A stretch of 64,000 bases of DNA, taken from contig CAJNDS010002087.1 in assembly GCA_905221605.1 (NCBI GenBank), forward strand, positions 5,001 through 69,000, given 5' to 3'. The stretch is from Symbiodinium natans. Its lineage: Eukaryota > Sar > Dinophyceae > Suessiales > Symbiodiniaceae. Shown here piece after piece: positions 5,326 to 63,259 of the stretch. Position numbers and translations under genes: made by a program. The notes under the pieces are model-generated. The model did no database searches, was not told the DNA's origin, and was given only the letters and a program-made list of their open reading frames with translations. Positions within the stretch are counted from its first letter, which is position 1. Each line of letters opens with the position of its first letter.

Positions 5326-8300
5326 CCGTCTCCTCAAGGAGGGTCGCAGCTGATGCTCATGATGTCCGCGCTTGGCGGGGCCGTCTTCTGAAGGGAGATC
5401 GCAGCTGATGCTCATGATGCTCGCTTTGGGGGCCTGTCTCCTGAACGAGGGTCGCAGCAGATGCTCAAGATGCTCACTTTCGGGGTTCGTCTCCTGAAGG
5501 AGGGTCACAGCTGATGCTCATGATGCTGGCTTTGGGGGCCCGTCTCCTGAAGGAGGGTCGCAGCTTATCCTCATGATGCTCGCTGTGGGGGCCCGTCTCC
5601 TAAAAAGGAAGGTCGCAGCTGATGCTCATGATGCTCGCTGTGAGGGCCCATCTCCTGAAGGTCTCCTGAAGGAGGGTCGCTGATGCTCATGATGGCTCGC
5701 TTTGCCGGGCCGTCTCCTGAAGAGGGTTGCAGCTGATGCTCATGATGCTCGCTGCTTTGCGGGCCCCTGAAGGAGGTCGCAGTTGATTCTCATGATGCTC
5801 GCTTTGTGCTTTGGGGGCCCGTCTCCTGCAGGACGGTCGCAGACCGTCTCCTGAACGAGGGCCGCAGCTGATGCTCATGATGCACACTTTTGGGCCCGTC
5901 TCCTGAAAGACGGTTGCAGCTGCTGCTCGTGATGCTCGCTTTGGGGGCCGACTGTTTTTCGAAGGAGGGCCACGCCTGATGCTCATGATGCTCGCTTTGT
6001 GGGCCCGTTTCTTGAAGGAGGGCCGCAGCTGATGCTCATGATGCTCGCTTTGGGGGCCGTCGCTTTGTGGGCCCATCTCCTGAAGGAGGATCGCAGCTGA
6101 TGCTCATGATGCTCGCTTTGAGGGCCTGTCTCCTGCAGGAGGGTCGGAGCTGATGCTCATGATGATCGCCTTGTGGGCCCGTCCTGAAGGAGGGTCGCAG
6201 CAGTGCTCATGATGCGCGCTTTGGGGCCCATCTCCTGAAAGACGGTCGCAGCTATTGCTCGTGATGCTCGCTTTGGGGGCCCGTCTCCTGAAGGAGGGTC
6301 GCAGCTGATGCTCAAGATGCTCGCTTTGGGGCCTGTCTCCTGAAGGAGGGTAGCAGCTGATGCTCATGATGCTCGCTTTGGGGGCCTGTCTCCTGAAGGA
6401 GGGTCGCAGCTGATGCTCATGATGCTCGCTTTGGGGGCCTGTCTCCTGAAGGAGGGTCGCAGCTGATGCTCATGATGCTCGCTTTGGGGGCCTGTCTCCT
6501 GAAGGAGGGTAGCAGCTGATGCTCATGATGCTCGCTTTGGGGGCCTGTCTGCTGAAGGAGGGTCGCAGCTGATGCTCATGATGCGCGCTTTGGGGCCCGT
6601 CTCCTGAAAGACGGTCGCAGCTATTGCTCGTGATGCTCGCTTTGTGGGCCCGTCTCCTGAAGGAGCGTCGCAGCTGATGCTCATGATGCGCGCTTTGGGG
6701 CCCGTCTCCTGAAAAAGGGTCGCAGCTGATGCTCATGATGCCCGCTTTGTGGGACGTCTCCTCAAGGAGGGTCAGCTGATGCTCATGATGCTCGCGTTGT
6801 GGGGCCCCGTCTCCTGAAGGAGCGTCGCAGCTGATGCTCGTGATGCGCGCTTTGGGGCCCGTCTCCTGAAGGAGGGTCGCAGCTAGCTCGTGATGCCCGC
6901 TTTGTGGGCCCGTCTCCTCAAGCATGATGCTCGCGTTGTGGGGCCCGTCTCCTGAAGGAGGGTCGCAGCTGATGCTCATGATGCCCGCTTTGGGGCCCGT
7001 CTCCTGGAGGGTCGCAGCTGATGCTCATGATGCCCGCTTTGTGGGCCCGTCTCCTCAAGGAGGGTCGCAGCTGATGCTCATGATGCTCGCGTTGTGGGGC
7101 CCGTCTCCTGAAGGAGCGTCGCAGCTGATGCTCATGAGGCGCGCTTTGAGGCCCGTCTCCTGAAGGAGGGTCGCAGCTGATGCTCATGATGCCCGCTTTG
7201 TGGGCCCGTCTCCTGAAGGAGGGTCGCAGCTGATGCTCATGATGCTCGCGTTGTGGGGCCCGTCTCCTGGAGGAGGGTCGCAGCTGATGCTCATGATGCG
7301 CGCTTTGGGGCCCGTCTCCTCAAGGAGGGTCGCAGCTGATGCTCATGATGCTCGCGTTGTGGGGCCCCGTCTCCTCAGGGAGCGTCGCAGCTGATGCTCG
7401 TGATGCTCGCTTTGGGGGCCCGTCTCCTGAAGGAGGGTCGCAGCTGATGCTCAAGATGCTTGCTTTGGGGGCCTGTCTCCTGAAGGAGGGTCGCAGCTGA
7501 TGCTCATGATGCTTGCTTTGGGGGCGTGTCTCCTGAAGGAGGGTCAGAGCTGATGCTCATGATGCCCGCTTTGGGGCCCGTCTCCTGAAGGAGGGTCGCA
7601 GCTGATGCTCATGATGCCCGCTTTGTGGGCCCGTCTCCTCAAGGAGGGTCGCAGCTGATGCTCAAGATGCTCGCGTTGTGGGGTCCCGTCTCCTGAAGGA
7701 GCGTCGCAGCTGATGCTCGTGATGCGCGCTTTGGGGCCCGTCTCCTGAAGGAGGGTCGCAGCTGATGCTCATGATGCCCGCTTTGTGGGCCCGTCTCCTC
7801 AAGGAGAGTCGCAGCTGATGCTCATGATGCTCGCGTTGTGGGGCCCGTCTCCTGAAGGAGGGTCGCAGCTGATGCTCATGATGCGCGCTTTGGGGCCCGT
7901 CTCCTGAAGGAGGGTCGCAGCTGATGCTCATGATGTCCGCTTTGTGGGCCCGTCTCCTGAAGGAGGGTCGCAGCTGATGCTCATGATGCCCGCTTTGTGG
8001 GCCCGTCTCCATGCTCGCGTTGTGGGGCCCGTCTCCTGAAGGAGGGTCGCAGCTGATGCTCATGATGGCCCGTCTCCTCAAGGAGGGTCGCAGCTGATGC
8101 TCATGATGCTCGCGTTGTGGGGCCCGTCTCCTGAAGGAGGGTCGCAGCTGATGCTCATGCCGTCTCCTCAAGGAGGGTCGCAACTGATGCTCATGAGGCT
8201 CGCGTTGTGGGGCCCCGTCTCCTCAAGGAGCGTCGCAGCTGATGCTCGTGATGCGCGCTTTGGGGCCCGTCTCCTGAAGGAGGGTCGCAGCTGATGCTCA

Positions 8301-8395
8301 TGATGCCCGCTTTGGGGGCCCGTCTCCTCCAGGAGGGTCGCAGCTGATGCTCATGAGGCTCGCGTTGTGGGGCCTGTCTCCTGAAGGAGGGTCGC
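5326..8395. repeat. 3-kb minisatellite, unit about 53 bp, over 50 copies
   Basis: The unit consists of CTCCTGAAGGAGGGTCGCAG, CTGATGCTCATGATGCTCGC and TTTGTGGGCCCGT. Copies vary by substitution (CGCGTTGTGGGG, GCCCGCTTTG, CTCAAGGAG) and by small deletions; copies become more uniform after about 6900. CTCCTGAAGGAG is close to self-complementary, so each unit could form a small hairpin. Minus-strand reading stays open over long stretches in all three frames because the unit is not a multiple of three; these open frames are repeat artefacts. It sits between exons of the probable DnaJ gene, hence probably inside an intron. Confidence 0.95.
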
Positions 8396-9784: not shown

Positions 9785-12700
9785 ATGTCCGGCGGCATGT
9801 TGCAGGCCCAGGCCCAAATGGCGCGCATGGCGGTGGCCGGCCCATCCTTTGACTGCAGCCTCCCCAAGGAATGCTTGAGTAGCGAGGTGGTCCTGGATGC
9901 TGAAGAGAATGAGGAGGGGGACTTTTCGAAAACAGAAAACCCCAAAACAGCGCCCCCCCCAAATGGATCCCCTTGTAATCAGGACCCCTAATCCCCCTAC
10001 TTTCGGAAGTTTTCAGGAGGAGGAGGCCCGGGTGCAAATGAACCTCCTGCGCGTCTGCCTCCACCACGGCAAGAGAATGGTCAGGGAGCCACTGTCTTTG
10101 GAAGTTGTGGTGAATGATGAGAAAGTTCTGGTCAGCGAGCCGGCTCCCCCCTGCTCATTCCCAGTGTGGAACTTCCTTGTCGAGCAGGAGGTCCTCGCAT
10201 CAAAAGTCGCGACTGTGAAGGTGCGGGTAATGTCTGGCAGCGGATTCTTTGCCAACGTGGTGGGCTCCTGCGCCTTTACCTGCAGCGTCAAGCCTTTCCA
10301 ACGTGAAGAGGTCCGGCTCCATGGTGGCAGCACCGGCATTTTTACCTGCAGCGCGGAGGCGGATGAGGGCCCAGTGCTGGTGATAGCTTATCAGCTTGGA
10401 GATCCAGAAGCTCGCAAGACGGACCTCGAATATGTCGCAGACCTGAATCTCCGGGACTTGAACCGGCGGGTCTACCACATCCATGCCGAGCCACGAACGA
10501 TGAGCTTCCACACACCCATGCCCAGTAGAGTTTCCATCAAGGTTGCCCTCGTGAAACTATCCAAGGATTCCGATGCCGCTCCGAGCGTCATCACCGCCAA
10601 GCAGACACGGGGCCTGAACAACATGCCTGGCAAGCTGGGCCAGAAGGTGGACCGGACCGGTGAGTTCTTCTTTGAGGAGAGTGCCGCCTTGGATTGGGAG
10701 CTTTACGAAAATGGCCTTGGGCTGGACGAGTATAAGCTGCAGTTGGAAGCGTTTCTGTCATCAGACGGTCACGAGAGGTGTCTTGGGAGGTGGCACGAGT
10801 CCTTGAAGCTCCTTCTGGACAGCATTGAAGAAAATGGCTTGAAGCTCAACTTCCGGGCCATCTTGCACGAAATCAAAGGGACCAAGACATCCGGGGAGGT
10901 GGAAATACTATTGGATATCAACGAAGCTGACATGCCCTCCAAACCGCCACCCTTACCGGTGGAGCACAAGTCGATGCTCACAGCGAAAAGGGGCAAGTTC
11001 TCTGCGGGCTTGACCGTGGACACCTTCTATGTGCATGTTGGGGCCACTGGACTGAACGCCTCCAGTCCCTTCCTGAAAGTGCGCTCTGATCGAGAATCCA
11101 GGAAGACGCACGAGTTCCAATGGAGTGAGGCTTATCCCAACATGGGCTACTTCAGTGGAGGGTTTGAAATTCGCACTTCCACCACCTCCTCGCGCACCAC
11201 CTTGGAGGTGTACAGTGACCATTCACAGACGCAGTTGCTGGGCAAGGTGGTCTTGCTCGAGACTTCTGCGGAGCGCCTGCCACTGTGGAGGCACATGTAC
11301 GGAGCTGCCAGGCATGCCACACTGGAGGAGGAGGCAGACGAGATGGCCCACAAGAGACGTACACCCAGCACTTACCAGGGCTCGCTCTACATCAGCTTTT
11401 CGCGATTTTCTGGGCACATCCGGGGCATGATTGGGAGCATGGTGGCGACGCGGAAGCATGTGCGGCTGAGGGCACGGCTTCTTCGAGGCATGTACCTGCT
11501 GCGCTACAAGAACACACGCGTCAAGGTGCTGATCCGGGTGCCCGGCTGCTATGCGCATGGCTCTGAGGATGTGCTGTGCTTCCCGGCTGAAGTAGATGAA
11601 GAAGGGCTGGCGAGCTTCCAAGATGAGGGCTCCGAGGGCTCAGAGGGCTCAGAGAAGTTCGTTGACATGGATATGACTGCAGATGCCGGCACAGCCTACG
11701 TCTATGTGGTGCGGGAGGGACAAGAAGGATGGCCTCCAGAAGTCTTTGGCCAGCTACCCATCCTCAAAGACCCCAAGACGTTCCATGAGGTCCACTGGGT
11801 GCGTCTTTCCTGCGACCGGTCTGTGGTCAGTGTCGGAGAGGACTGGCAGGAGTTCGCAGGCTTCTTCTCAGGAACAAGTACGTTGGAGCAGTTGGAGGCT
11901 CCGCTTTCTTCGAAGAAGGCTCCAGCCTCCGGCTGGGGCTGCTGTGCCCAACCGGAGGAAGTTGAAGAGTACCTGGAGGAGATCCCAGCTGATCCTGCCG
12001 CACCGCTCCCAGCTAAGCCAGCCCAGCTCGCCTCCACCCTCCCTGCCCTCACCGGCAAGTTCGCGCCTGTCTACTGCCACGTGGACGTCTTGGCCGCACG
12101 ATCCTTGCCCACGGCAGACCCGGACGGGCTGGCGGATCCCATCTTCGAGCTGCAGGTAGAAAACCTCGTAGCAAGATCTGTGGAAGGCGAGTCCGCTGAG
12201 ACACGCAAGACCCTGAATCCAACCTTTTTACAGCGAGTGGTTCTTGGGCCTCTGCAAATCGCCGTGGATGCCGATGGACAGCTGGAGGCGCAGCAGCTGC
12301 CCCCAATCGTACTTCGCATGCTGGACAAGGACGACGTTCGCAGCGGCGGTCTGATTCTGTTTTCTTCCTATGAGGTCATGGGACAGGCCGTGATCACTGA
12401 TGCCCAAATCCTTGAGGCCAAGCCTGGGGAGAAACAGGACCTAAATCACCTGCATGTCGCGAAATGGTATGGGCTTCGGTCGGATGTCCGGAAGGTCTTC
12501 GAGCCCGGCTCCCTGAACCCCACCTGGGCGAGAAGGCCACGTGTCCTCCTAGCTGCTGCCTTCTCTTTGTCTAGAGACGTGCAGTCTGTGGGCCCGGCTA
12601 GCCAAGAAGCAGTCCAAAGAATCTACACCCAGGAAGTCAAGAACTACAAGATCAAGTTGGATTTGCTCGGCATGCGAGCACTCCAGCATGCCGACGTGCA

Positions 12701-15700
12701 TGGCTTGGAGCTGTCCATGCCATCATTCTGCTCCGGCTATACAACGCCAACGCTTCTGCCGGTGACAGATAACTTCACTGGCAATTACGACCCAGCTCTG
12801 GTCCACGCTTTCGCATCGAAGGTGGGCGACTTCATTCCGGTGAGGGTCGAAAGCGAAGGCGAGTCTTTCGAGAACTTTGAGAACGCCGCTGACTTCACCA
12901 TCGAGAAGAATGAGCCCGTGGGCTGGTCAATCTCTGTGCCCTTCGAAGGCCCGGTGATCCCGTACCTTCAGCCTCGCAGGGGGGCATTGACCAGCCCAGC
13001 AGCTGCATGCCCCCCGGGGCCTCGAGGGCTTCGCGTGATCTATGAGAAGCCCTTCGTCTTGCTGCCGGACGTCGTTCTCATGCTGACAGCTCAGGGCACG
13101 GATGAGGGCTCTGCATCCGTGAGTTTGCCCATCACGTACGAGGGCCTCGATGGGCGCCACCAGATCGAAATTGCCAGGCCGCTGGAGCAGAGCTTGAGAG
13201 CTTGCAAGGTCCTTGAGCCTTGGGAGCCGAGTCAGGCTCAGACGACTTTCCCCCGAATGGCAGTCAAGAAGGGCGACATGGTGGAGGTCTTGCGGCGAGA
13301 GCCGACAGGCTGGACATACGGCACAAAGATGGAGAGCATGATGGAACGCAGACGGAGATTGGCTTCCGGTGCCCAGCATGACGAGGTGCAGGGTTGGTTT
13401 CCAGATTGGACAATCGAGTATGACCCCTCAAGCTGGACCGAGAAGTGCGTGAGCCAGTTTGCCGCCTTACCCCAGGACCTAAAGGGCCTAAGCCGGCTTG
13501 TGGAGCAAGGGAACTACGGCGAGGCAGTGTACCACTGCTACATAGACGTCTTTGCGGAGACATCGGGCCTTCTCACGTGGAACAAGGAGTTTGTCGTGGG
13601 CCGAAGCCTGACGACACAACATCTCTTCACCATCGAGGACAAGGATAGCAAACACACCAGCCAGTACTTCAATCAGGGTGACTGGATGCTGGATGCCCGG
13701 TCCTTGGATGAGCCCTTCGACTGGCGCGCCACACCCGTGCTACATGCCGAGCGTCGCAACCACGTGCCCCTTGGGCCGAAGAGGCTGCTTCGCAACCTGA
13801 AGCCCGTGAACTTTTCCGGGATGAGGACCCGCGAGCTGAAGCAGCATTGCAGAAAGCAAGGATACCGGCTCCTGTCCCACCAGCACATGCCCGAAGCACT
13901 GAACCCGGGGCACTTCACACACCACGATTACAGCGACAATCTGCACTCGTTTCTTCGGCCTGTGGGGCATCGAATCCGAGTTCGCCAGGACCGGGACTCG
14001 AAGTTCTTGGCCCGATTGCGACTTGGACTTCCGGCACACTTGTGTACCAGAAAGTTGGAGGTCTCCATAACCGACACGGAGAAGGAAAAGGTCATCTTCA
14101 AGCTGGAGCTAACAGGAGCCGTAACCGTGATCCGGAGTGACATCAAGCTGGTGTCCCTTCCGCCTGGCCACAAACCAAGCACCCACATGAAGAAGGACGG
14201 AAGCTGCATGCTGGCGTTGCCGCATGGCGAGCAGGTGACCCTCACTGCTGCGGAGGCCCGGCGATCCTTGAAGGCAATCGAGGAGATCTTTGAGCAGGCA
14301 AAGTTTGATCAGGAGTCGGAGGCGAAGGAGAATTACACGACCAACGTCCTTGTCATCCGCTTCGACAGAGACGGCCAGGTAGTGTGGGCTGCCCCAGAGC
14401 TCCTCTCCTCTTGGAGCGAGCCTGGAAAACTTCTCTTCGTGGTGAAGCTGGATTCTTCCGATACGCTGGTTCCTGTGCGGGTGCCCTGCTTCGACTTGCG
14501 CTTCGAACTGGAGACTGCGTGGTTCCCTTGCAAGACTTTGGCAGGCCTCCATGGCGTGAAGAGTGAGCAACTCAAGACAGTGGTATACGACTCGGCCACC
14601 CTGGAAGAAGGCGATGAGGACGCTGCCTCTGGCTCAGCCCTAGAGGGTCCGGATGGTTACTGGAAGCCCATACCCGTCTTGAAGCATGCCTTCTGCTGTC
14701 GGCTGATGAAGCTGAAGGGGACCGCCAAATACGACAGACCTCGAACCGACAGCTGGTTCCGGTCAGCTCTTGAGGACACCTTCCCAGAGATTGCCACGCT
14801 CCCGCTGCAGCAAGGTCCTCTCGGTGCAGACTACCATTTTGTCAAGCACTTCTTTCTGGACAAGTGCATGAACCTCAAGAAAGAGCTTGTGCTGGATGAC
14901 AAGAAAGTTGGCCTTGTGAAGGGGCATGTGGATATCGACGAGGTCGGGGAGCCAGTGCAGGCTCAGGTCGGGACGATCCCCATAGAACGGCTTTGGGTCA
15001 AGAAGTTCTATGTCGTGGACATTTGCCTCTTGACTGTCCGCGGCGTGACCGAAGCACTCCAGGATCCATATTTGGAAGTGGGCATTCGTGGCAACGAGGA
15101 GAGCTTCGTGAAGAAGCATGCCAGCTTGGTGCATCAAGACAACCCTGGCTGCGACTTCTACGCAAACCTCTCCTTCGAAATGATGCTGCCCAGCAGCTGT
15201 GAGTTCATCTTCCGTCTCTATTCGAGCGGCATCTTCGGGGACACGCTTGTCGGAGAGAACGTGCTGGACATCGAAGATCGGCATGTGGCACAGCTGAGCA
15301 AGAAGCTGCGCCAAGCATCCAATGAGCAGTGGCTCCGAGAGAACGTCTCCCCAGAATCGGACATTGAGGTCGTCTTCGAAGAGGGAGAGGATTCTGAGCG
15401 AGCCTGGCTCGAACCCACGCTGCCCAACTTTCGGCCATACAGCAAGAGGCAAAGCACAAGGCTTTTTGACCCGAACAGCAAGGAGGACGCCCAGGCCTTC
15501 CAGCGTCGCCTGGGCATGAGAGGACACAGCGCCATCGAGACATGGCCTCTACGTGGTCCAGAAGGTCTTCGCACTGGGGCCCTTAGGCTGTGGATGGATG
15601 TCTCTTCGCAAGAAGAAGTGGTACCGGATGTTGTCTTCAAGGAGCACAAGCACCTGACATTTCAACTGCGGGTGAAACTGGAGTCCGTCACCGGCATCTC

Positions 15701-16382
15701 ACTTTTCCGAGATAAAGGACAGAGGAACGATGCCTTTGTGAAGCTGGACTTCGTTGCGAAGTCTGTGGGCCAGGATCGGGTTCGCGAGTCCAAGCCAACA
15801 GAGGCACACAAGTGGGCCAGAAGCACAGCATCGTTCTGCCAACTCTTGATTTTCGAGGTGACAACTCCAGTTCAGTATTGCGGGCTCACGGTGACTTTGA
15901 TGGACCAGGACACAATCGCCGGCCCTGAGGAGATCTACGCATCCAAGAACGTGCCCCTCGAGATTCTTGCCGCGAATGCAGCACAAGGTGAAAGGACGTC
16001 TGTGGCCTACGACGTGGTTTTCGACAGGCACCCCCAGAAACACCAAATGGATCAAGGAAGAGGCTTCTGGTGCTGCCGCCGAGCTCCCAGACCCAAGCCG
16101 CCCCCAAAGCCTGCGACACTGCACATGGAGCTCCAGATGGTCACGCTGGAAGACGCAGCAAGCCAGGAGCTACCTCCGGAAGGTCGATACGCAACACCCC
16201 AGGACCGAATAGACTGGGCCTCTGCTGCCATCCACCCGGTTGAGTTCATGAAGATCTTTCTTGGGCCGAAGCGGGAGGCTCGTATCAAGTGCTACGGCCT
16301 AAGCTGCATACTCACAGTGATCTGTTTGGCCTTGCTTGGCATGACTTGGCTGATCATGCAAATCCTCAGTCCGATCGTCTGA
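9785..16382 (+). CDS. Ferlin-like multi-C2 membrane protein with SH3-like module
   Basis: Best model: exon 1 at 9785-9913 (starts MSGGMLQAQAQMARMAV), intron 9914-10016, exon 2 at 10017-16382, about 2,164 residues. A continuous frame from an ATG at 9897 would give 2,161 residues, but its first 40 codons lie in a sequence related to short inverted-repeat elements of this window and end at TTTTCAG|GAG, so I treat them as intron. Several C2-like beta-sandwich segments follow: near residues 45-150, about 180-330, 375-470, 725-880 (with Asp-rich TADPDGLADP and LDKDD, apparent calcium loops), 1700-1800 (DPYLEVGIRG) and 1920-2030. Residues about 1120-1175 resemble an SH3 fold (KKGDMVEVL, GWTYG, then GWFPDWTIEY) with an inserted loop. 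The C-terminus has HPVEFMKIF, a basic patch and a single membrane helix (LSCILTVICLALLGMTWL), the tail-anchored layout of ferlins. Ferlins drive calcium-triggered membrane fusion; in alveolates they act in organelle secretion. Such a role here is inferred. The family call rests on layout and motifs only. Confidence 0.85.
9914..10016 (+). mobile_element. Introner-like element forming ferlin intron 1
   Basis: The 103-bp interval begins GAGGGGGACTTTTCGAAAAC and ends CTACTTTCGGAAGTTTTCAG. Its ends are imperfect inverted repeats (GGGGG-TTTTCGAAAA against TTTCGGAAG). The right half resembles the element at 28172-28260, which has GGATTCCCTTGTACTAGGGA and then CTATTTTCGGAAACCCCC. Removing it joins two Glu-rich coding frames in phase 0 (GAG|GAG), implying a GA-AG intron or a GAG duplication at the insertion site. 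Confidence 0.6.
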
Positions 16383-21660: not shown

Positions 21661-22299
21661 AATTCCTTGCAAATGAGTTCACTTCGTAGTTCAGGGGCAC
21701 TAAGGACTCTCCTCTTTACGACTTCATGATTCAGGGGTTGAGGGACAAAGATTTGGGATCCCTCCCCTTCAAGGGCTTGGTGTTCAGGAGTATAGTGCGA
21801 GGTGAAGGGGAGGAGAGAAAAACTTTTCTTGTGGTTTGCGCAAAGATTTGGGGAGTACGATGAAGGGAATACGATTTAAACAAACAAGACTAGGGTCCCG
21901 CTCTTTAGGGTTTAGCGAAAGGGTTTAGGAAATAGGGTGTGTTTTTTGGATTTAGGGCTCTCCTCCTTCGGGATTTAGAGACTAAGGTTGGAATCCCTCA
22001 GGATTTAGGGAGAAAAGCTAAGGGAATAAGATAGGGATCCCGCTCAAACATATCCATCTGCAAGTCTCGCGGCAGAAAACCTAAACACGATTGATCAATT
22101 GGGGGAAGCATATATATACATATATATATATATATGTAGGGTTAGTATTAGAACAAACCTCCCCTCCGATTTAATGCTGTCATCGAGCTATAGAGCTTAA
22201 GACGCTAGACAAGACAGGTCGAATCCTGAGCCTTGTAGCGCTGTAGGGCTAGAGCGCATGGACGCAGCCGGGATGCCGTACACGCAACTTGTTCATATG

Positions 22300-46426: not shown

Positions 46427-47630
46427 CCTTGGAAGCTCGCCTCCGAAATAACAAGGCAAACAGCAGCAATAAGTTCATCCCGGTACCTTTCGTCATCGTC
46501 TCGGGCCAGTTGACATGCCCATCAAGACAGCTTCTGGGAGGCTGTCGGTTGGAATTTGCATTCGCTTTGAGGTTGCGGCTTGCTCATCAGGGTAGGATAT
46601 GGGGGCTGAGGCTTGGGACTACCCCCCTCGCAGCAAATACAAGTTGGCTGGGCTCTGCCCAATCATCCAGATTGAAAACCAAGAGCCAAGGTTAATAGGG
46701 CGATTTGCATATCTCCTTGAAGGCACGTGTGGGGCCTGAAGCGGGGTAGTGGGTAGCACAACACGCCATTCTTCGTACTTCGAACTGGAACTTGCAGATG
46801 GCAGCCTCAAGGGCCTCAAGGCAACCAAACCCCGGCGCGCTTGTCAGGCGACTTGGGCGTCCACTACCAGACAGAGGAGGAGGCCACTCCTCGGGAGAAG
46901 GGTAAAGGGTGTGAAGTTGGGTAAGCACAGACCGGCTTCTGGGCTGCTTGTCTTGAAGTGTACCTGAAGAACAACCCAATGTTTACAGAGTTCACAGTAG
47001 GCAGTAGGGATTGTGAGCACTAGGTCCTGGAGCCTGGCGATTGCGAAGCTCGCTGCCGCGAGCAGGCGAAATGCACTTTCTTCTGGCCTCTTGGCAAGGG
47101 TCATAATGGGCATACCTGCCGCGCGCGAAGTATATCTCTAGCCATCGCTAGCAACGCGATGCCACTTGCCTACAACTACAAGAACTGCGTGCGCCGTGCC
47201 AGAAGCGTGGAAGGCTTCTTTCGATGCATACGAGTAGGATGCCAATCCAGTGGAAGAGGCATGCAATCTGCTGCGAGGCCAGCGCCTCCAGCCTTCCCCC
47301 ATACCTGACGACTGGGAAGACGTCGAAGAAGCTCCAGAACTTGAACCCCGACACAAAAACCCCGAAGTTCTAAACCCTGAACCCACCCTGAACCCTAGAC
47401 CACCTGAACCCAGGCATGGCTCGCAGCATGGAGCTTCCACCTGCCGACTCTTTCACGGCTGCGACAACCTGGTTCGGGAGTTTGGCCTCGAAGGGGACCT
47501 CAAGGTTCCCAGGTTCTTAGCAGGGAATGAGGCCATTAAGGCCCTTTCTATACCCTTTAAGGGGTTGTCTAGGGCCCTAACTCCCCCATTCCCTGCTAAG
47601 AACCAGCCAGTCAAGGTTCCCAGGTTCTAG
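46427..47630 (+). CDS. Multi-exon Cys-rich protein with PAN/Apple-like domain
   Basis: Exons: 46427-46482 (LEARLRNNKANSSNKFIP, GTACCT donor); 46848-46901 (DLGVHYQTEEEATPREK, ends G|GTAAAG); 46959-46996 (VYLKNNPMFTEFT, ends ACA|GTAGGC); 47024-47233 (VLEPGDCEARCREQAKCTFF, then YNYKNCVRRARSVEGFFRC, ends CGA|GTAGGA); about 47251-47340 (EEACNLLRGQRLQPSPIPDD, WEDVEEAPELE); and about 47405-47630 (ASTCRLFHGCDNLVREFGLE). Phases agree from the second to the fourth exon. The cysteine pattern of exon four is PAN/Apple-like, suggesting an extracellular adhesive protein. An upstream frame (reads DPQMFEHLPVAWLHNAVRMA near 46200) may contribute. The step from 47233 to 47251 is too short for an intron, so a frameshift or wrong boundary exists there. 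The final exon carries an inserted inverted-repeat element. Confidence 0.5.
47341..47405. repeat. Degenerate C-rich telomere-like tract before an exon
   Basis: CTAAACCCTGAACCC, CCCTGAACCCTAGACC and similar words end in CTGAACCCAG immediately before the exon reading ASTCRLFHGC. Confidence 0.75.
47512..47604. mobile_element. Introner-like element with perfect 18-bp inverted repeats
   Basis: GGTTCTTAGCAGGGAATG at 47512-47529 is exactly inverted at 47587-47604. The element is bracketed by an 18-bp direct repeat, TCAAGGTTCCCAGGTTCT, at 47500-47517 and 47611-47628 (the left copy overlaps the inverted repeat). The direct repeat holds CAG|GTTCT, so the left copy offers a GT donor and the right copy a TTCCCAG acceptor; removing the 111 bp between them restores the uninterrupted coding frame. 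Confidence 0.75.
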
Positions 47631-50329: not shown

Positions 50330-53300
50330 TTCGCGTGGACAAGACCATGCTGGACAAATGGCCGCGGACTCAGTGGGATACCAACTCCATGTGCGACTAT
50401 CATCAGCGGCAGTGCGTGCGCCGCATGTAGGGAGCGGCTGTGCGTGCGCCGCGTCAAGTTGTATGGCCTTATAAGTCCTCTAAATGTAGGGTATCAGTAC
50501 AGTTAACCCAAAATCTTGAACCCCTAAACCCGAAACCCTAAAACCTAAACTTAAACCCCACCTTAGGCCAACTCCGTCGACTTTGTGGACAAGGCCAAGC
50601 CCGCGCAGTGGGAGACACCCCAGAGGCCCCCCAGGGGTCCGGGGTTTTTGGGGCTTAGGGTTTTTGGGTAGCTTCCCATTCAAGCAGGATAGCCTTCAGC
50701 TGGGGCTTGGGGCTTACTGGGTGCGCGGTCTTGGAACGCGCGTGAACCCGCAGCCCATTTAAAGCCCCAAACCTCACAGTCCTCGAGAGGCCTCGAAACT
50801 ATGCAGCACAGCCCTAGGCCCTGTAAACCGAGAAAACTCGCGTTCAATGCACTTAGGCGCCCTAGAGCTCGACACACCACACTTGCACAAGCCCTGAGGC
50901 TTAAAGCATCCAAGCCTTAAACTTTCCTTAAACCTCGAAAACGCGCAAAGCCTTGGAGCCCGAAAACCCTTTAGGGTTTAGGGTTTAGGGTCTAGGGGTG
51001 GCTCAGGACAAGGTTTAGGGTTTAGGCTAGGGTTTAGGGATTAGGGTTTAGGGTTTACGGTTTAGGGTTTAGGGTTTAGGATTTAGGGTTTAGGGTTTGG
51101 GGTTTGTGGGCAAGATGACAGACGAGGCCGAGATCGCAGGGAGTTCTTGGGTTATGCGAGGTTCCTGGGAGCGCGTGCTTTGCCCCGTCCAGATTTTGGA
51201 AGCGGGGGGGGGGGACGGGGGTTCAAGAACAGCGGACTTCCAAGAAGCCAGGCTACACCCCCACTAAAACCCCGAAGCCTAAGCCCGAAACCGTTCATAA
51301 TCCCTACCCGATGCACGCGCGGCCTGTAAAGCCCAAACGCTCAAGCCTCGAAACTCAGAACCCTGAAAACCCTAAACCCTCAATTTCCCTTGACCCTATG
51401 TGTGTGAGTGAGCCAGATACCAGTCTTTCGGTCAGCCAATGTAGGTCAAGTGTCGGGGAAGTTGGCAGCCTACGAGGGTTCCGGGTGTTCAGAGTTCATA
51501 GTTTGTTTCACTTCTTTTTGCATTGTTCTCGCCATGGACGACGCCCAGTACCTGCCTATTTTGCAAGCCGCCGAGCAGGCATGGGGCGAAAACTGGCACC
51601 AAAATCTGGATTACACTTGGGTTTACCAGCAGTTGGGAATGGACAGAGGGCGGAGGATCAACGCGACTGCCCGGCGCTTGCACGACCGCCTCTGGTCCGA
51701 TTTGAACGCCAAGTTTCCGGCCCCTGCGGAAGAAGAACCGCCTGCAGGAAAGAAGCGGAAGAAGGGCCAGCAGGGCGAAAAGACCGAGGTGAAGGTGCAT
51801 GAAAAGTTCGCTGCGGTGCCTGCCCACAGACACCTGGGAGGCCGCTATGGCTTGGCTTCGGCTGTGCAGGATAAGAGCATGCTGGAACCTGGTGTCGCTA
51901 TCGTCAACGCTGGAATCTGGGGCATGCTGGAGGAGGACGTCGCTCCGTACGTTGCTGCGGCAGGGGCTGGTCCCAATGCTCTAATGGCAGCTTCAGGCGG
52001 GCAGGAACGAAAGCACATTGCACTGTATGTAGGTAGCCTGAGACCTGGTGAAGCCGCCGGTGGTCTTAGTGCTAGCTGTTAACCAACAGCAGGCGTTGCT
52101 TTTTGGTGGAAAATAAATGGACAGTAAAGTTTACTTTAGCTGAGACCTGGTGAAGCCGCCGGTGGTCATCAGCTGTACAGACTTGGCGAGCATGTAAGCG
52201 CAGACCTAGTGAAGCCTCTGGTGGACATCAGCTAACATAGGGAGGTTTCTGTTTTACAGTCGGAGCATGTAAAGGCTTAGTAAGCATGTAAGCTGACACC
52301 TGGTGAAGCCGCCGGTGGTCTCAGTGCTAGCTGCCAAACCACAACAGGCGTTGCTTTTTGGTGGAAACAGATGGAATGTAAAGCTCTGTAGCTGTGAGAC
52401 CTGGTGAAGCCGCCGGTGGTCATCAGCTGTACCTAGGGAGCTTTGTCTTTTACTGTAGGAGCAAGTAAAGGCTTCGTAAGCATGCAAGCTGAGACCTAGT
52501 GAAGCCTCTGGTGGTCGTCAGCTAACATAGGGAGGTTTCTCTTCTACTGTAGGAGCTTGTAAACAGAGACCTGGTGAAGCCGCCGATGGTCTCGGTCGTA
52601 GTGCTAGCTGCTAGCTGTCAACCCACAGCAGGCGTTGCTTTTTGTTGGAAATAAATGGAAATTAAAACTCTTTAGCTGAGGCCTGGTGAAGCCGCCGGTG
52701 GTCATCAGCTGTACAGTACATAGGAAGGCTTCTCTGTTACTGTAGGAGCACGTAAAGGCTTAGCAAGCAGCATGTAAGCTGAGACCTGGCGAAGCCGCCG
52801 GTGGTCATCATCTCCCTGTTCAGGTTCGGCTGCTTCCAGCAGCACCGATGCTGGACCTGCCACTGCAGCCACTGTCTGCAAATGCATCCTGGCCGAGCAC
52901 GTGCAGGACGGCGGCGCCAAGGTGGTGATTGTGACGAATCGCTGCAATCTGTTGTTGACCCGCCAGAAAGGATGCAGGCATGGGGACGACTGCAGGTGTT
53001 GCCACCTCCATCCTGTATCCAAGAAGGAGAACCAGGCGCGGCCCTCGAAGGGCTACGACAAGAACGAGCGCCTTTCCAAGTTGGAGGGGGTCACTGCACA
53101 GCAGCGAGAGGAGAAGAACCGCAAGCTGGCGACGACGTCTGCTGTCAGCAAGGACTTCTGCGGCATCGCACGGGCAGGGCAGCTGCAGGACGACGTGGCG
53201 GTATCCGTCTTGACCATAGGCCGAAACCTCGACCGAGGCTTCGCGTGTGCGAAGCATGTGGAGGACGCCCTTGGCTTGCCACCTGGCGTCGTCTTCGTGC

Positions 53301-56420: not shown

Positions 56421-56694
56421 GGATGGTCGGGCTGCAGTTCTTCATGCGGAACCCGACGTCAAGACCCAAATGCTTCCTTTAAGAAGCTCCTTCGGTTTCT
56501 GCTTGCCAGCGATGAAGCTCACACGATAAGCCACAAAGTTGGTTTCGGGAACGCTACTCAGCAATCGGGCCAGTATGTCGAGGTAGGATTCTGACCCTTC
56601 GTTTCGTTTGCCATCTTCGGTGTCGGAAGAGCATGCCGCTCAGAGACGGGCAATCATCACATTTCCGAGTGCCCCAAACCTCAAACCCCAAAAC

Positions 56695-56765
56695 CAACCA
56701 AGCCCCCTAAACCCCAAACCCCAAACCCTAAAACCCTAAACCCTAAACCCTAAAACCAACCAAGG
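56695..56765. repeat. C-rich telomere-like tract
   Basis: CCCTAAACCCCAAACCCC, CCCTAAAACCCTAAACCC and related words, ending ACCAACCAAG. Confidence 0.9.
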
Positions 56766-62778: not shown

Positions 62779-63118
62779 TTTTAGGGTTTTAGGGTTTAGG
62801 GTTTAGGGTTTAGGGTTTTAGGGTTTTAGGGTTTAGGTTTTAGGGTTTAGGGTTTTAGGGTTTTAGGGTTTTAGGGTTTTAGGGTTTAGGGTTTTAGGGT
62901 TTAGGGTTTAGGGTTTTCCCCGCGGATGGGGTACTAAGATGATACCCCCCCCCCCCCCTGTGGTGTGGTTGGGGGTTGGTTTTAGGGTTAGGGTTTAGGG
63001 TTCAGGGTTTTAGGGTTTAGGGTTTAAGGTTTAAGACTTCAGGTTTAGGGTTTAGGGTTAGGGTTTAGGTTTTAGGGTTTAGGGTTTAGGGTTTAGTTTA
63101 GGGTTTAGGGTTTAGGGA
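62779..63118. repeat. Interstitial telomere-like arrays, two blocks
   Basis: About 18 TTTAGGG/TTTTAGGG units at 62779-62920 and about 16 at 62979-63118, separated by CCCCGCGGATGGGGTACTAA and the second poly-C/GTGGTGTGG copy. Mixed 7- and 8-bp units. Confidence 0.95.
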
Positions 63119-63259
63119 CCGTAGAGTAGACTTGGGGGGGGGGGGATACCATGGGGGGGGGGGGGGGGGGGGCCCAGGACGCTCAACGCTGAACCATATA
63201 TACCCTCGCAGGGATTATATGATACCTCATTCCCCCATTCCCTACTAACCAACAGTAAG

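Follow-up and report, generated by a model that had tools for sequence, protein, structure and literature searches.

A MITE copy with an unusual 18-bp repeat at its left junction in Symbiodinium natans: a candidate intron in principle

Within a 64,000-nucleotide stretch of a Symbiodinium natans contig (the window, to which all coordinates below refer), positions 47500 to 47628 raise the question of whether a transposon can be seen here in the process of becoming an intron. The original prediction held that an element with perfect 18-bp inverted repeats had duplicated 18 bp of its target upon insertion, that the duplicated sequence provides both splice sites, and that splicing removes exactly the inserted length and restores the exon that existed before. 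The repeats themselves, the family to which the element belongs, the junction at which the long repeat arose and the coding context of the site each bear on this question, and they are taken in that order.

Repeats and hairpin at the locus

The direct repeat, TCAAGGTTCCCAGGTTCT, lies on the + strand at 47500-47517 and 47611-47628, its two copies being identical at 18/18 positions and 111 bp apart. The inverted repeat, GGTTCTTAGCAGGGAATG, has its left arm at 47512-47529 (+ strand) and its right arm at 47587-47604 (- strand), again with 18/18 matches, and the perfect inverted repeats of the original prediction are therefore real. Pairing between the arms extends to 34 nt at 85% complementarity, and the 129-nt stretch forms a hairpin on folding, with z values of -5.75 as DNA and -6.12 as RNA. 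Each of the two repeat words has 2 occurrences in the window when up to 3 mismatches are allowed, compared with an expected 0.07-0.08. When the whole window was scanned for direct repeats of 11 bp or more that enclose an inverted repeat of 10 bp or more, 3 places were returned, while the same type of scan returned 0 places in 10 first-order Markov sequences. The inverted-repeat word has no match in IMG/VR viral contigs, and a scan of the window for known RNA families at gathering score found none.

Although the direct repeat is as perfect as predicted, it does not simply flank the inverted repeats. The left arm, which starts with the motif GGTTCTTAG of the family described below, shares its first 6 bases (47512-47517) with the left direct repeat, and the right arm ends 6 bases (AGCCAG) before the right direct repeat; given this overlap on one side and this gap on the other, the two kinds of repeat are not cleanly nested.

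Elsewhere in the window, at 21746-21852, a 12-bp direct repeat (CAAAGATTTGGG, copies 95 bp apart) has an 11-bp inverted repeat inside it, and most of this stretch is matched by two other places in the genome, at 77% and 74%.

A dispersed family and its direct repeats

The 759-Mb assembly was searched with a query of 181 bases around the element, and 40 of 1,168 first-look candidates were scored. At these 40 places, the window itself excepted, the best match was 79-86% identical over approximately 95-125 bp, and matches mostly spanned query bases ~29 to 132, the part of the query taken up by the element rather than by flanking DNA. The 24-base right end, CATTCCCTACTAAGAACCAGCCAG, has 544 exact matches in the genome, compared with 0 for its reversed control, and those among the 100 listed of 544 are spread over many contigs. 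Copies were read at the 40 first-search places (window included) and at 90 of the 100 listed right-end places, resulting in 129 distinct places; of the ten listed places left out, two were already in the set and eight were unread at this point. Both ends were recognised in 97 rows corresponding to 96 distinct places (L021 and L065 are the same), with one copy per locus. The consensus computed from 76 copies is 105 bp long and a nearly perfect palindrome, and terminal inverted repeats are thus present in the family. The window copy, at 47508-47610 on the + strand, aligns to consensus positions 3-105 of 105 with 85% identity. Its divergence from the consensus is 16.2%, compared with a median of 10.5%, and places it 60th of 76 when the copies are ordered from least to most divergent. 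These values do not amount to a census because copies entered the sample either through their resemblance to the window copy or through having an intact right end. A decayed half copy of the same family is found on the + strand at 63196-63255 (82% over 61 aligned consensus positions).

Judged by its sequence, the element in the window is one copy of a Symbiodiniaceae-like dinoflagellate MITE. That a transposon inserted here, as originally proposed, is supported by its membership of a near-palindromic family that is dispersed in the genome and whose ends carry short direct repeats. Like MITEs, i.e. non-autonomous DNA transposons with terminal inverted repeats, the family is short, non-coding, near-palindromic and dispersed in hundreds of copies, and the direct repeats at the element ends are short; unlike MITEs in general, one junction here carries a direct repeat of 18 bp. 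A literature search on Symbiodiniaceae and miniature inverted-repeat elements, judged by titles, found no such family.

Several other features were observed in the course of this survey. The half copy at 63196-63255 adjoins a G-run and telomere-like TTTAGGG repeats, and telomere-like interstitial arrays (TTTAGGG, CCCCAAA-type) occur in the window at 62780-63117, 50970-51105 and 56672-56754. Several family copies also have their flanks within telomere-like repeats. In L085, L099, L129, L132 and L137, the interior seems to be expanded, with palindromic units like CCCTTTAAGGG / GGGTATAT occurring repeatedly. The window also includes a long tandem array with a period of ~53 bp (5326-8395) and a 2,167-aa ORF at 9879-16379 that contains a C2 domain. 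The relatives of this ORF that have an assigned organism are Symbiodinium proteins 30-40% identical to it, and one further protein, from ENA, is 84% identical over 98% of its length.

The search for direct repeats was confined to the interval 5-13 bases ahead of the left motif. Among the 96 distinct copies, their length is 0-3 bp in 44, 4 bp in 34, 5 bp in 10, 6 bp in one, 7 bp in three and 8 bp in one, with single copies at 11, 14 and 18 bp. Four base pairs is thus the mode, though not a universal length since 44/96 copies have 3 bp or less; 18/96 copies exceed 4 bp, and just three exceed 8 bp, namely the window copy (18), L089 (14) and L038 (11). In 30 of the 46 rows with repeats of 4-6 bp, the repeat starts 10 bases before GGTTCTTAG, directly before CCCCCT. 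For the 31 copies outside this main comparison, no direct repeat longer than 6 was found within 160 bases. When the left end of each copy was paired with the right flank of another (9,312 pairings, one place being counted twice), none of the matches exceeded 9, from which we conclude that the 18-bp repeat is not due to chance. It is, however, an exception within its family. Moreover, most of the left 18-mer occupies the place where the left end of the element itself is expected: the family consensus can be aligned to its final 10 bases (47508-47517), and the TCAA with which it begins is taken to be the short target duplication typical of the family. The right 18-mer directly follows the family right end and is read as target DNA. 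Being both exceptional in length and largely positioned over the element's own left end, the repeat is not simply a target duplication, and the 18-bp target duplication of the original prediction is accordingly doubtful. With a family mode of 4 bp, the 18-bp repeat reports an unusual junction and not the size of the target duplication.

The left junction

The right end of the window copy is canonical, with CCAGCCAG followed by TCAA of the target. At the left end, target-like bases run through the motif GGTTCT where CCCCCT is expected. All three copies with long repeats share this feature, i.e. the repeat enters the place of the left end and target-like bases are found instead of CCCCCT. L089 and L038 have their repeat start at the modal position (exactly 10 bases before GG); the start in the window copy lies 2 bases further out. 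The left end was also compared with the right flank base by base in the 34 distinct copies whose repeat lies at the modal offset and is 4 bp or longer, a set that does not include the window copy. Deviating left-end bases were identical to the right-flank base in 14/23 cases, with 6.0 expected and 2/5,000 shuffles reaching that number; when L089 and L038 are left out, the effect is weaker (9/18 vs 4.7 expected; 111/5,000 shuffles).

These observations suggest a scheme in which a transposase would have acted on the ends CCCCCTGGTTCTTAG and CTGGCTGGTTCTTAG to move the element, and target DNA would have been joined to the left end, or would later have converted it, by way of the shared GGTTCT. 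Such joining or conversion would lengthen the direct repeat from ~4 to 18 bp. The scheme draws on three long cases among 96, one of which, L038, sits in low-complexity CT-rich DNA, and the modal repeat start in L089 and L038 fits later conversion better than end joining. Taken as a whole, we think it probable that 47508-47610 is a copy of the 105-bp MITE family with a left end altered by joining to, or conversion by, target DNA, that it lies in likely non-coding DNA, and that it constitutes no established intron.

One copy counts against replacement of the left end. The left junction of L011 (G000:C1734), TCAAGTTTCCCAGGTTCTTAG, is the same as that of the window copy at 20/21 bases, and its right flank contains no matching repeat; we offer no explanation for it. 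By eye, the flanks of L011 around the shared junction look unrelated to those of the window copy. A subfamily carrying the window's left end was considered and rejected: TTCCCAGGTTCTTAG is found in 3 places (the window copy, L011 and a third that lacks the element) compared with 6 for the reversed control, and the longer junction, with up to 3 mismatches, in 46 places compared with 39. Also rejected, as a rule for the family, was targeting of sequence that resembles an element end, for GGTTCT at 8-14 bases after a right end is found in 4 places, the window among them, and scrambled TCTTGG in 4; at the other three GGTTCT places the right flank matches over no more than 3, 5 and 6 bases, and the 6-base match falls within the element.

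Alternatively, all 18 bp (12 plus the 6 of the overlap) could be a true target duplication, produced by an insertion with a longer stagger or by a replication-based one. The complete identity of the two repeats and the 14- and 11-bp repeats of two other copies would agree with this, but 93/96 copies have repeats of 8 bp or less, and independent template jumps would not require the repeats of L089 and L038 to start at the modal place. We consider such an origin unlikely.

Splicing, coding context and known introners

Is the window copy nevertheless a working introner, i.e. did it insert into an exon, with the duplicated target providing GT and AG and 111 nt leaving the mRNA? In favour of this, a GT-AG pair that exactly restores the sequence does exist at the window copy. 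Removal of the hypothetical intron at 47513-47623 (+ strand; GT...AG, 111 bases) leaves precisely one repeat copy, and the equivalent register 47505-47615 is equally good and yields an identical product. The splicing arithmetic of the original prediction was thus correct, and the hypothetical continuous exon across the site would read TCAAGGTTCCCAGGTTCTAGATG. Exact splicing is possible on paper because the long repeat happens to hold AGGT twice.

The rest of the family argues against an introner. Repeats of 4 bp or more occur in 52 copies, of which just 5, the window copy included, have a G[TCA]-AG pair that restores the sequence exactly, and the target duplication does not therefore match splice sites family-wide. 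Two of these five, L084 and L095, owe the pair to a repeat that begins with GT beside a terminal CAG, and a repeat beginning with the donor dinucleotide is seen in 0/34 distinct modal-offset copies and 2/52 overall. Also unfavourable is the reading frame across the insertion: the 111 bp correspond to 37 codons without a stop in the one open frame and, being a multiple of three and stop-free, would not break that frame if retained.

Introduction into an exon would predict coding sequence around the site. A 130-aa ORF runs through the element, but it has no Pfam match, and among 5.8 billion proteins a word-based search matched only the window's own predicted protein. An empty paralogue was sought from either flank and none was found, the other matches being low-complexity or short and partial. 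In the left flank, the codon score is 0.05-0.18 (windows starting 47161-47461), for the most part in the frame that the 130-aa ORF uses; this is weak but counts for an introner, the values lying mostly between the 75th percentile (0.09) and the 90th (0.23) of the whole window, whose median is -0.03. Over the element itself the score is negative. As the model was trained on one ORF, the codon score says little in either direction. Junction-crossing frames of 100 aa or more are not clearly commoner than at controls (6/52 exactly joined copies vs 10/104 control points), which does not favour an introner. The median frame across the insertion point is 61.5 aa vs 57 aa at control points (one-sided Mann-Whitney p 0.05, the points not being independent), so there may be a small excess of crossing frames. 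A PAN-like coding piece suspected by eye at 47028-47095 had no Pfam match and was dropped.

With no exon demonstrable at the site and no paralogous empty site found from the flanks, neither the restoration of a pre-insertion exon nor the view that the element is becoming an intron was borne out. The copy most likely lies in non-coding DNA, with no established intron, and a working introner appears improbable. In our view the window copy is a MITE of the ordinary sort that is odd at one junction, and it could count as a candidate intron in principle only. We see only a slim chance that, in a few insertions, overwriting of the left end via a shared GGTT creates direct repeats of 11-18 bp that, where they contain AG|GT as in the window copy, supply the splice pair and open a route from MITE to introner; this pair is absent from most normal family copies. 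Finally, we find it very hard to credit that an older copy next to this site left its left end behind as the right repeat, and that the window copy inserted beside it or formed a tandem with it, for although the right repeat and the bases after it (CCCAGGTTCTAG) resemble the family left end (CCCTGGTTCTTAG), the consensus has no match at E 0.01 between 47610 and 63196 in the window, and GGTTCT is no commoner after right ends than its scrambled form.

How does the locus compare with known introners? Passages of Gozashti et al. 2022 (PMC9860276) describe Symbiodinium microadriaticum introners that have terminal inverted repeats and 4-bp target duplications, take their donor from the target duplication and contribute the AG from the element; their existence is a further point in favour of an introner here. 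The elements described here resemble them in their dinoflagellate host, terminal inverted repeats, 4-bp target duplication and AG at the right end, and differ, in a comparison made by description only, in that the repeat starts with the donor dinucleotide in so few copies. Those copies that do have GT there, L084 and L095, share the S. microadriaticum arrangement. According to the same passages, introner families in Florenciella sp. take donor and acceptor alike from the insertion site, as would also be the case at 47513-47623; this again lends an introner some plausibility. Unlike in those families, the arrangement here is that of a single aberrant copy with hypothetical splicing. The hairpin introners of Amoebophrya, as described by Farhat et al. 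2021 (PMC7789003), have inverted repeats of 8-20 nt and direct repeats of 3-5 nt. They are similar to the window copy in that their inverted repeats form hairpins and their direct repeats overlap the edges, but they differ in the shortness of those direct repeats and in having been defined among non-canonical introns of annotated genes. In general, direct repeats of 4-30 bp occur near intron borders, according to Rogers and Bendich 2025 (PMC11782384). Since the transposon-to-intron idea has already been described for introners, the window locus is a candidate for a known idea.

If spliced, the locus would represent a clean birth of an intron from a MITE, with both splice sites derived from duplicated target DNA. 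Intron birth with both sites taken from the insertion target has already been described as a class among introners, in the passages cited above (PMC9860276). More generally, a single locus as striking as this one needs to be read against the repeat family to which it belongs.
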